From: Sulfurospirillum oryzae
GTDB taxonomy: Bacteria; Campylobacterota; Campylobacteria; Campylobacterales; Sulfurospirillaceae
Direction: 5' to 3'
DNA length: 64,000 nucleotides
Assembly: GCF_025770725.1 (NCBI RefSeq)
Contig: NZ_JANZKZ010000003.1
Span: forward strand, 186,001 to 250,000
Shown here: one piece after another, positions 56,127 through 62,280 of the stretch
Position numbering within the stretch: position 1 is the stretch's first letter
How the letters are laid out: each line of letters starts with the position of its first letter
Translations under genes and position numbers: made by a program
Notes under the pieces: model-generated
What the model saw: only the letters and a program-made list of their open reading frames with translations
What the model was told of the DNA's origin: nothing
Database searches by the model: none

Positions 56127-56183
56127 TTTTACACGCTTCCCAAGCCAAGCTTGAAAAGCTACGTTGCACTATGCACTGAAGCT

Positions 56184-56199
56184 TGCCTCTTTCGAGGCA
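56184..56199 (-). repeat. GCCTC/GAGGC hairpin repeat, fdhC-MFS gap
   Basis: TGCCTC-TTTC-GAGGCA hairpin. Its reverse complement with flanks matches the hairpin at 58398-58413 over about 30 bases (TTCTGCCTCGAAAGAGGCA then AGCTTCAG). It lies between convergent genes and may terminate transcription. The rest of the 150-bp gap holds two ACATGTAA palindromes (56208-56232). Confidence 0.6.
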
Positions 56200-56276
56200 G
56201 AATAATTCTACATGTAAGCTTTACATGTAAAGTATGGAAAGTCTTTTTTTAAGGCTTTCCGTATTGATTTATCTGA

Positions 56277-58246: not shown

Positions 58247-58275
58247 TTGACAATTCAAAACAAACCTGCTATTAT
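58247..58275 (+). promoter_or_regulatory. Promoter of the sulfate transporter operon
   Basis: TTGACA (58247-58252), 17-bp spacer, TATTAT (58270-58275). Predicted start near 58282, about 217 bases before the sbp ATG, leaving room for a leader ORF and hairpins. Confidence 0.8.
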
Positions 58276-58303
58276 TTCGTCAATTTAAAACAAGGAGGTA
58301 ACC

Positions 58304-58369
58304 ATGAAGTCTCATTTTTCCCTTATTCATGGGAATAGTGCTCATGTTTTTTTTCTGATGTGTTGCTAA
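58304..58369 (+). CDS. Cys-Cys leader peptide upstream of the sulfate ABC transporter
   Basis: 21-codon ORF with an ideal AAGGAGG ribosome binding site (58292-58298) five bases before ATG. It ends FFLMCC-stop: two adjacent Cys codons TGT TGC just before TAA. It lies between a near-consensus promoter and the sbp gene. Known pattern: leader peptides with tandem codons for the pathway's end product act as attenuators; here cysteine starvation would stall the ribosome at the end of the leader and alter downstream folding. Too short for length-based ORF finding. Confidence 0.75.
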   Translation: MKSHFSLIHGNSAHVFFLMCC

Positions 58370-58397
58370 AAAAACGCCTTACAACTGTAAAAATTTC

Positions 58398-58413
58398 TGC
58401 CTCGTAAGAGGCA
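58398..58413 (+). promoter_or_regulatory. Hairpin in the leader region before sbp
   Basis: TGCCTC-GTAA-GAGGCA, 28 bases after the leader stop. A weaker GGCA (58441-58444)/TGCC (58454-58457) stem follows. No U-run follows, so a translational switch or Rho-dependent attenuation fits better than intrinsic termination. The hairpin is a member of the GCCTC/GAGGC repeat group also seen at 13508 and 56184. Bases 58164-58498 otherwise hold only the promoter and the leader ORF. Confidence 0.55.
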
Positions 58414-58498
58414 AGCTTCAGCGCCTTAGCGGCCAGCGTAGGCATAGGGGCTTTGCCATGTGCCGTTCAAAAAATAATGTAACACAAAGGAAAAAAAT

Positions 58499-59518
58499 AT
58501 GAAATTCTTCAAATCAAACAACCTCTTTGGGGTAGCCATAGCAGTTTTGGCGCTCGTAGCGCCTTTTATTCACGCCGCAGACATCTCCTTGCTCAATGTC
58601 TCGTATGACCCAACCAGAGAGTTTTACAAAGAGTACAACCAAGCCTTTGCCAAACACTGGAAAGAGCTTAAAGGCGATAATGTAACTGTGCGTCAGTCTC
58701 ATGGTGGTTCGGGTTCACAAGCCAGAAGTGTCATTGATGGGTTGGATGCTGATGTGGTCACTTTAGCACTTGCTTATGATGTCGATGCCATCGCCCAAAA
58801 AGCAAAAGCAATTGATCCTAATTGGCAAAAACGTTTAGCGCATAACAGTGCACCGTATACCTCTACTATCGTCTTTTTGGTACGTAAAGGCAATCCAAAA
58901 GGCATTAAAGACTGGGATGATTTAGTGAAGTCTGATGTCAAAGTCATCACGCCAAACCCAAAAACCTCAGGAGGTGCTAGATGGAACCATTTAGCGGCTT
59001 GGGGTTATGGACTTGAAAAATACGGCAGTGAAGAGAAAGCCAGAGAGTTTGTGACCAAAATCTATGCCAACGTTCCTGTTCTTGACTCAGGGGCTCGTGG
59101 ATCTACGAACACCTTTGTTCAACGTGGACTTGGTGACGTGCTACTGGCATGGGAAAATGAAGCCTTTCTTTCTATCAACGAACTAGGTCGTGATAAATTT
59201 GAAATCGTTGTCCCCAGTGTGAGTATTCTTGCAGAGCCAAGTGTGAGTGTTGTCGATAAAAATGTGGAGAAAAAAGGGACAAAAGAGGTAGCAACGGCAT
59301 ATCTTGAGTACCTTTACTCTAAAGAGGGACAAAGAATTGCAGCCAAAAATTACTATCGTCCAACTGATCCTGAAATTGCTAAAGAGACAGAGTCAACCTT
59401 TCCAAAACTGAAACTCTTTACGATTGATGCTGTCTTTAACGGATGGGGTGAAGCTCAGAAAAAACACTTTGCCGATGGTGGCGAGTTTGACAAGATCTTC
59501 GCTTCAATCAAGCGATGA
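58499..59518 (+). CDS. sbp: Sulfate/thiosulfate ABC transporter periplasmic binding protein
   Basis: 339 residues with signal peptide ending [20 protein letters not shown], the Sbp/CysP start motif. Conserved [26 protein letters not shown] and [19 protein letters not shown] bind the oxyanion. ATG 58499 has AAAGGA upstream. It overlaps cysT by four bases. Sequence alone does not tell sulfate from thiosulfate preference. Confidence 0.92.
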
Positions 59519-60345
59519 AGTGGCAATTTAGAAAACCGAGTGTCTTGCCAGGTTTTGGCTTGACGCTCGGCTTTAGCCTGACCTATGTGACCCTCTTAGT
59601 GCTCATACCACTCGGAGGGTTACTGCTTTATACGACGAAACTTTCGTGGAGCGAATTTGGTGCGGTCATTCTTGACCCTAGAGTTCTGGCTTCATTTAAA
59701 CTGAGTTTTGGCGCAAGTCTTATTGCGGCGGTTATCAACCTCTTTTTTGGACTGATTGTCGCGTGGACTTTAGCTCGGTATAACTTTTTTGGTAAAAAAA
59801 TTGTCGATGCACTGGTTGATTTGCCTTTTGCACTTCCAACCGCCGTTGCGGGTATTGCCCTAGCGGCAATTTTTGCGCAAAGTGGTTGGATCGGTAGACT
59901 TTTAGATCCATTAGGCATCGTGATCGCCTATTCTAGGGCGGGGGTTGTGGTTGCACTCGTCTTCATCGGGCTTCCTTTTGTAGTACGCACGGTTCAGCCT
60001 GTCATCGAGGAGTTTGAAAAAGAGTTTGAAGAGGCGGCGACAAGTTTGGGTGCGTCATGGTTGCAAACCTTTACAAAGGTGATTTTACCCTCGTTAATGC
60101 CAGCTCTTTTAACAGGGTTTGCACTCTCGTTCGCAAGAGCTCTGGGTGAGTACGGTTCGATCATCTTTATCTCAAGCAATATGCCCTTTGTGAGTGAGAT
60201 CGTACCGCTCATCATCGTGACCAAGCTTTCGCAGTTTGATTATGTGGGCGCGACGGCAGTAGGAACCGTGATGTTGCTTGCGACATTCGTCATTTTGCTT
60301 TTGATCAATCTTATTCAGATTTACAGTCGCGAAAAAAGTTTATAG
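59515..60345 (+). CDS. cysT: CysT, sulfate ABC transporter permease
   Basis: 276 residues, six transmembrane helices, with the EAA loop [23 protein letters not shown] that contacts the ATPase. [20 protein letters not shown] near the C-terminus is typical for CysT (CysU). Starts within the sbp stop region (ATGA) and is followed by cysW after nine bases. Confidence 0.93.
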
Positions 60346-60354
60346 GAAAAGAGA

Positions 60355-61191
60355 ATGCAAACAGAACATCGTTTAGAGCCTAGGTGGCTTAAACCACTTT
60401 TATTGGGTATTACGCTTCTTTTCTTAGGAATTTTTTTAGTGCTTCCTTTGGGAATCGTATTTAGTGAAGCCTTGGCAAAAGGGTGGAAGGTATATTGGGA
60501 ATCTATCACTGAACCAGACGCCATCGCTGCGATTAAGCTAACCCTTTTAGTGGTCTTAATTACCGTTCCGCTCAATACGGTTTTTGGTGTAGCCACGGCG
60601 TGGCTGATCGCTAAGTTTGAATTTCGAGGCAAAGGGCTTCTTATCACGTTGATTGACCTGCCTTTTGCTGTTTCTCCTGTTATTGCAGGTCTGATTTTCG
60701 TGCTTTTATTTGGAAGTCAAGGTTGGTTTGGAGCGTGGCTGAGTGCGCATGATATACGCATTGTCTTTGCGACTCCGGGCATTATAGTTGCGACGTTGTT
60801 TATCACCTCGCCCTTTGTAGCACGTGAGATCATTCCTCTCATGCAAGAGCAAGGCAAAGATGAAGAAGAGTCTGCCTTAACACTCGGCGCCTCAGGGTGG
60901 CAAACGTTTTGGAAAGTGACGCTTCCCAACATCAAATGGGGGCTTTTGTATGGTGTCATTCTCAGTAATGCTAGAGCAATGGGTGAGTTTGGAGCGGTTG
61001 CGGTTGTTTCAGGTCACATCAGAGGCTTGACGACAACAATGCCTTTACATGTAGAGATTTTATACGGCGAGTACCTGTTCACAGCTGCCTTTGCGGTTGC
61101 TTCACTTTTGACCCTTTTAGCACTGGTGACATTGGTGCTTAAAAGTTTCATTGAGTGGCGCATCGGTAAAAAACGCTCACTCGCGCACTAA
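60355..61191 (+). CDS. cysW: CysW, sulfate ABC transporter permease
   Basis: 278 residues, six transmembrane helices. EAA loop [23 protein letters not shown] and C-terminal [21 protein letters not shown] identify the CysW partner of CysT. It lies nine bases after cysT and nine before cysA. Confidence 0.93.
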
Positions 61192-61200
61192 GGATAAACC

Positions 61201-62280
61201 ATGAGTATTCAGATTTCAAATATTAACAAGCGTTTTGATAATTTTGTAGCATTAGATAACATTAACTTAACCATTCCCGATGGCGAGCTCGTAGCACTTC
61301 TTGGCCCTTCTGGTTCAGGTAAAACGACCTTGCTTCGCATTATCGCAGGGCTGGAAGAGGCCGATAGCGGAACGATCTATTTTAACGGAGAAGATACCAC
61401 CGCAACGCACGTGCGTGACCGAGGTGTGGGGTTTGTGTTTCAGCACTACGCGCTTTTTCGGCACATGAGTGTGTTTGAAAACGTCGCCTTTGGACTTCGT
61501 GTCAGACCTAAAGAGACACGCCCGAGCGAAGACGAGATCAAAGAGCGCGTACATAAGCTTCTTAAACTTATTCAACTCGACTGGATTGCCAATCGTTACC
61601 CATCACAACTCTCTGGCGGACAACGCCAACGTGTAGCACTTGCGCGTGCCCTTGCTGTCGAGCCAAAAGTGTTGTTACTCGATGAGCCTTTTGGCGCATT
61701 GGATGCCAAAGTACGCCAAGAACTTCGCCAATGGCTAAGAGCTTTGCACGATGAGATTCACATTACCAGTGTGTTTGTGACCCACGATCAAGAAGAAGCC
61801 CTTGAGGTTTCTGACAAAATTGTCGTGATGAATCAAGGCAAAATCGAGCAAATCGGCACTCCCGAAGAGGTGTACGACAGACCTGCGAATCCGTTTGTCT
61901 ATAGCTTTTTGGGCAATGTCAATCTCTTTCATGCCCGTGTGGAGCAAGGCTCACTGCATCTTGAAAACACAGAACTCAACACGCCCGATCTGGGAAGTTC
62001 TAAAGAAGCATCGCTTTTTGTTCGTCCGCACGAGATCAACATTAGCATCGACAATGCAGAGGGAAGTGGCATTGAAGCCAAACTCACTGGTTGGAGGCTC
62101 GTAGGCCCTAGGGTTCGTGTGGAACTTGAAACCGTGCATGCCCACCAAAGGGTGGAAGCGGAGATTTCAAAAGCACAGTGGCAGACGATTAAAACGCATG
62201 AAAATGACTCTTTATTTGTTCATTTTGAAAGTGCCCGCATCTACACAGGTGAAGCTTCGTGGAATGATTATGTTATCTAA
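61201..62280 (+). CDS. cysA: CysA, sulfate ABC transporter ATP-binding protein
   Basis: 359 residues. Walker [12 protein letters not shown] (residues about 36-46), signature [15 protein letters not shown], Walker [14 protein letters not shown]-loop [10 protein letters not shown], then a C-terminal regulatory/TOBE-like domain from about 240 ([11 protein letters not shown]). Hydrolyses ATP to drive import of sulfate or thiosulfate. Last gene of the operon; a hairpin follows 40 bases later. Confidence 0.95.

Follow-up and report, generated by a model that had tools for sequence, protein, structure and literature searches.

A conserved leader ORF with terminal Cys codons upstream of the Sulfurospirillum sulfate transporter operon, a candidate cysteine-responsive translational attenuator

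We analyzed a 64,000-nucleotide stretch of the Sulfurospirillum oryzae genome (the window), in which a short ORF ending in two Cys codons lies upstream of genes for sulfate uptake. The promoter, the leader and the operon are arranged as follows:

58247..58275, + strand: promoter TTGACA-17-TATTAT, with an extended TG before the -10 (-35 TTGACA at 58247-58252, -10 TATTAT at 58270-58275)
58292..58299, + strand: leader Shine-Dalgarno sequence AAGGAGGT, recognized from the sequence and conserved in 8/8 genomes
58304..58369, + strand: leader ORF MKSHFSLIHGNSAHVFFLMCC*, 21 codons (ATG at 58304, Cys20 TGT at 58361-58363, Cys21 TGC at 58364-58366, stop TAA at 58367-58369)
58499..59518, + strand: sbp, sulfate ABC transporter substrate-binding protein (NF008022, 8.6e-166; TIGR00971)
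59515..60345, + strand: cysT permease (TIGR02139, 1e-116)
60355..61191, + strand: cysW permease (TIGR02140, 1.9e-123)
61201..62280, + strand: cysA ATPase (TIGR00968; PF17850 CysA_C_terminal)

Curated protein models identify the genes downstream of the leader as sbp-cysT-cysW-cysA, as an earlier sequence-only reading of this DNA had proposed, and the promoter, the ribosome-binding site (RBS) and the 21-codon ORF with two terminal Cys codons that it described are all in place. A cluster of Cys codons preceding sulfur genes is also the arrangement of the mycobacterial polycysteine attenuators. The genes upstream of the promoter (crcB-like, DUF190 and MFS genes) lie on the opposite strand, so the + strand promoter serves the sulfate operon. 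CysD/PAPS-reductase-type genes are also present in sbp-bearing genomes, and sulfate therefore plausibly feeds cysteine synthesis.

The promoter scores 11/12 consensus matches and is the sole promoter match across 600 bp; its -35 and -10 elements and TATTATTTCGTCA are conserved in eight Sulfurospirillum genomes. The leader ATG lies approximately 22 nt downstream of the predicted transcription start site and is preceded by AAGGAGGT, so the transcript does not qualify as a leaderless mRNA. Since Cys accounts for 0.86% of the codons of the genome, two terminal Cys codons would arise by chance in about 7e-5 of ORFs. A whole-genome scan for an RBS followed by a short ORF ending in CC, with 15-45 nt between the ATG and the Cys codons, returned 7 matches in any frame, one of which was judged to be in frame.

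Conservation was assessed across the genus and the phylum. sbp is carried by 8 of 24 Sulfurospirillum genomes, and the leader occupies the same place in all eight, which are mutually related and so amount to perhaps 4-5 independent cases. The eight peptides (MKSHFSLIHGNSAHVFFLMCC, MKSNFPPIHGNSAHVFCLMCC, MKSNFRPIHGKSTHVFCLMCC, MKSNISLIHGKSTRVFCLMCC, MKSSQAIVHGKNAHVFHLMCC, MKSKQAIVHGKSTHVFCLMCC, MKSSKAIIHGKSTHVFCLMCC and MKSTNTIVHGKSTHVFCLMCC) share the consensus MKSxxxxxHGKSTHVFCLMCC*, with 21 codons, zero indels and an invariant terminal Met-Cys-Cys-stop (ATG TGT TGC TAA). Codons 4-8 vary freely in amino acid, and the N-terminal half as a whole is unconserved in sequence at constant length. 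The leader thus contains codons for the amino acid of the pathway, as trp/his-type leaders do: Cys20-Cys21 is invariant, and codon 17, which is Phe in the window copy, is Cys in 6/8 genomes. It also resembles ermC-type leaders in being a short, Shine-Dalgarno-led ORF upstream of the gene proposed to be regulated. Across 397 genomes of the phylum, the motif was found before sbp in Sulfurospirillum only; of the matches outside the genus, one (L097) lies inside a 4Fe-4S ferredoxin-type gene and is due to chance, and one with 3 mismatches (L222) was treated in the same way.

The sequence-only reading was to be given up if the ORF or its Cys codons proved unconserved among relatives; both are conserved in every sbp-bearing Sulfurospirillum genome. 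Conservation across the genus removes chance as an explanation of the terminal Cys codons, and the ORF is, on its sequence features, very probably a genuine translated Cys leader. By comparison, it is very improbable that the conserved block is a protein-binding site or a non-coding RNA element such as a riboswitch and the ORF incidental: the last codons are near-perfect in nucleotide identity and the window copy has a strong overall fold (z -3.75), but that fold stems partly from a non-conserved repeat, an Rfam search of the leader region gave only chance matches below the gathering score and no family, the start codon, strong Shine-Dalgarno sequence, frame and 21-codon length are kept in 8/8 genomes, and the first half of the ORF accumulates amino-acid changes but no indels.

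Folding of the leader transcripts pointed to a long-range pairing between the end of the leader and the start of sbp. The two strands are:

58342..58366, + strand: predicted anti-RBS strand in the leader (TCATGTTTTTTTTCT, TGTGTTGC), codons 13-21 with both Cys codons, from the minimum-free-energy fold, duplex ranks and synonymous recoding
58479..58502, + strand: predicted sequestered sbp initiation region (GTAACACA, AGGAAAAAAATATGA), comprising the Shine-Dalgarno sequence and start codon, from folding

In the minimum-free-energy fold of the window copy, the HVFFLMCC codons at 58342-58366 pair with 58479-58502 in 23 pairs. The capacity for this pairing is conserved: it appears in all eight genome folds despite linkers of 56 to 198 nt and differing sequence on the RBS side, so that, as in ermC, the RBS is sequestered in the default fold (8/8, weakly in L011). 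Computed on static folds, without co-transcriptional kinetics, the cost of opening the sbp RBS in free RNA was 14.5, 8.2, 4.7, 6.6, 11.6, 12.6, 12.6 and 12.9 kcal/mol in the eight genomes. With a ribosome placed at codon 19 (P site), the corresponding costs were 2.6, 2.6, 1.4, 1.5, 2.3, 2.1, 2.0 and 2.1 kcal/mol. A ribosome at the stall codons thus releases the RBS in silico, as the ermC model demands, with a relief of 3.4-11.9 kcal/mol. Comparable relief was not seen in silico when the ribosome was placed at the start of the leader or when the linker was blocked, and the computed relief was insensitive to the assumed ribosome footprint size.

Two controls were applied. When the sbp RBS was replaced in turn by 120 RBSs from elsewhere in the genome, taken from the window and 14 stretches of 20 kb, the relief equalled or exceeded the real value in 0, 1, 5, 4, 0, 0 and 0 of 120 cases in the seven genomes tested. 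The background duplex mean was about -13.5 kcal/mol, and the U-rich leader end pairs somewhat with any A-rich RBS. When codons 12-21 were recoded synonymously according to genomic codon usage (100 recodings in each of eight genomes), the real relief was reached in 0, 3, 53, 23, 6, 0, 0 and 0 of 100. In six of the eight genomes, synonymous recoding therefore mostly destroys the relief, and codon choice looks fitted to RBS pairing. The weak cases are L011 and L012, whose opening costs of 4.7 and 6.6 kcal/mol are no better than those of average RBS contexts and whose recoding results are not significant.

We consider it fairly probable, on the strength of these folding models and the conservation of the leader, that the leader is a cysteine-starvation sensor acting by translational attenuation; that it responds to cysteine by whatever mechanism is likely. 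We infer that the ORF is translated, that ribosomes stall in it when cysteine is low and that this alters sbp output. When Cys-tRNA is plentiful, ribosomes would complete the 21-codon leader and depart, and the freed HVF(C)LMCC codons would pair with the sbp Shine-Dalgarno sequence and start codon, so that sbp would be poorly translated; cysTWA would be kept low along with it through polarity or coupling. When Cys-tRNA is scarce, a ribosome would stall with Cys20 or Cys21 (or, in relatives, Cys17) in the A site and cover the anti-RBS strand; the sbp start would then be exposed and sulfate uptake would rise.

Between the two strands lies a GC-rich element:

58395..58457, + strand: core of a dispersed GC-rich repeat with the hairpin TGCCTC-GTAA-GAGGCA, 20 genome matches including itself

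The sequence-only reading had stressed this hairpin and noted that it has no U-run. The hairpin is present as described; as a regulator it was rejected, because it belongs to a dispersed repeat whose block is absent at the sbp leader in four relatives (L010-L013), where the linkers measure 56-61 nt. In the window the long-range leader-RBS helix encloses the repeat in its loop, which suggests that a dispersed repeat can enter a regulatory leader and leave the predicted switch intact. Further copies occur at 56173-56202 (- strand) in the window and in L002-L008. A second repeated sequence, the palindrome TTTACATGTAAA, occurs at 17 places in the 64 kb (e.g., 1414, 17902, 57440 and 62285) against 0.01 expected, and several relatives have it, or a close variant, just downstream of the leader; a terminator, an uptake-like sequence and a regulator site are candidate roles.

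The alternatives to translational attenuation were then weighed. One is that the ORF is a constitutive small ORF or protein that does not sense cysteine and acts by translational coupling, by mRNA protection or as a trans-acting peptide, perhaps of a metal- or redox-binding kind. A second leader bears on this reading: in four Sulfurospirillum genomes (L206-L209; L203, L205), a GGDEF-EAL (c-di-GMP) gene follows a leader whose peptide resembles MTFxxAxFHGKxTLVLCLMRCC, and in one of the genomes (G005) this leader lies about 2.5 kb from cysD/PAPS-reductase-type genes. Here HGKxTxVxCLM(R)CC is kept with different codons and in silico tests predicted no RBS sequestration, a hint that the peptide itself may matter. 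At sbp, however, the N-terminal half is unconserved, the Cys codons cluster terminally, as they do in stall leaders, codon choice looks tuned to RBS pairing and, this one paralogue apart, the leader occurs before sulfate uptake only. A constitutive small protein is accordingly unlikely.

The other is transcription attenuation, in which a ribosome stalled at the Cys codons would keep a terminator hairpin from forming between leader and sbp, or translation of the leader would govern a Rho site. Cys codons right before the stop do resemble trp/his-type leaders, and the window genome has a terminator-like CATGGG..CTCATG-T8 within the leader. This in-leader hairpin was rejected as a terminator: it lies upstream of the Cys codons, on the wrong side for such a role, is weak, at -1.5 to -4.8 kcal/mol, and is unconserved, its T-run being interrupted in relatives. 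Between the leader and sbp, neither a U-tailed hairpin nor a conserved terminator was found, the trp/his-type intrinsic terminator thus being absent from this interval; the GC hairpin is a dispersed repeat; and linkers down to 56 nt leave scant room for a Rho site. A case for this mechanism comes from another Campylobacterota genus (lineage f2/g5; L166 and L167), where in two genomes Cys-rich leaders, MAQMCSDCYCQYNMYFK or MAQMCYKYCCQYNMYLTRICA, lie approximately 170-200 nt upstream of sbp and are followed by textbook mutually exclusive hairpins 1:2, 2:3 and 3:4 (-7 to -26 kcal/mol) whose sequences differ while the pairing is kept; by its predicted folds this element looks like a classical attenuator. 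For the Sulfurospirillum leader, we regard transcription attenuation as improbable. The sequence-only reading had left Rho-dependent and translational control side by side; translational control is the better supported of the two.

Cys leaders also occur elsewhere in the phylum. The earlier expectation of conservation in Arcobacter and Campylobacter did not hold for the HVFCLMCC leader, which is confined to Sulfurospirillum, but unrelated Cys leaders are present in an Arcobacter-like genus and in the second lineage described above. In the Arcobacter-like genus (f7/g11; the name is a guess), a leader MMCDMC(K/R)... precedes sbp in most sbp-bearing genomes, as well as a second operon whose first gene encodes a sulfonate-binding SsuA protein (loci L112, L113, L115-L121, L125 and L142-L165; in L142-L165 the ATG is at about locus position 1501 after orientation). 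The leader is followed by the conserved block GGTGAGATTTTTTTAAATCTTTAATTATCACACATTTAGTGTATATTA, and its promoter carries an inverted repeat, TCACC-N9-GGTGA, which may be a repressor operator. RBS sequestration by the MMCDMC leader was tested in silico and not seen, so this leader must work otherwise, if it works. Several sbp matches of this group (L113, L116-L119, L124 and L127) show an in-frame stop codon, TAG in most of them, within the aligned region, which could be the natural stop near the alignment end. No Cys leader was found in genera g37, g54, g39 and g32, and 56 loci scanned outside the phylum yielded no convincing Cys uORF before sbp. On balance, we lean towards the view that cysteine leaders for sulfur uptake arose in Campylobacterota on three or more occasions, with peptides unrelated to one another and with differing architectures: RBS masking by the Cys codons themselves in Sulfurospirillum, mutually exclusive hairpins in lineage f2/g5, and MMCDMC leaders common to sulfate and sulfonate operons in the Arcobacter-like genus. 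The Sulfurospirillum version would then be a minimal one-helix switch.

Comparison with known systems places the proposed switch between established types. In the trp/his/leu/ilv transcription attenuators, the leader has many codons for the amino acid that regulates the pathway. The Sulfurospirillum leader likewise holds codons for the pathway amino acid, but has neither a terminator nor a mutually exclusive terminator/antiterminator pair. In ermC-type translational attenuation, a ribosome stalled in the leader opens up a masked RBS downstream, with no terminator involved. The same release of a masked RBS is predicted here; the signal in ermC, however, is an antibiotic, whereas the signal proposed here is amino-acid shortage, and the Sulfurospirillum leader is itself the sequestering strand, the multi-hairpin rearrangement of ermC being absent.

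The closest parallel in signal is found in mycobacteria, where cysteine-directed attenuation by polycysteine leaderless uORFs was proposed in 2015 by Shell et al., who termed it the first candidate in bacteria (PMC4633059), and is cited in two later articles as demonstrated by Canestrari et al. 2020 (PMC9031893, PMC9094748). The claim of novelty in the sequence-only reading was therefore overstated as regards cysteine-responsive leader attenuation; for Campylobacterota, no report of cysteine leader attenuation was found in the open-licence literature. Cysteine-directed attenuation appears to be known from mycobacteria only. In both systems, sulfur-metabolism genes are preceded by a short ORF in which Cys codons cluster, and both would read cysteine availability through ribosome speed. 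The mycobacterial uORFs are leaderless, actinobacterial and unrelated in peptide, whereas the Sulfurospirillum leader has a strong Shine-Dalgarno sequence and no more than 2-3 Cys codons, lies upstream of sulfate ABC transporter genes in Campylobacterota and forms the anti-RBS strand with its own Cys codons. If the proposal is true, the sensing codons of this one-helix cysteine switch double as its silencing strand, a design that is simple and directly testable: one helix, two Cys codons and one RBS. Taken together, a conserved, Shine-Dalgarno-led version in Campylobacterota and the recurrence of unrelated Cys leaders at sulfate and sulfonate operons suggest that ribosome-based cysteine sensing recurs in bacteria.
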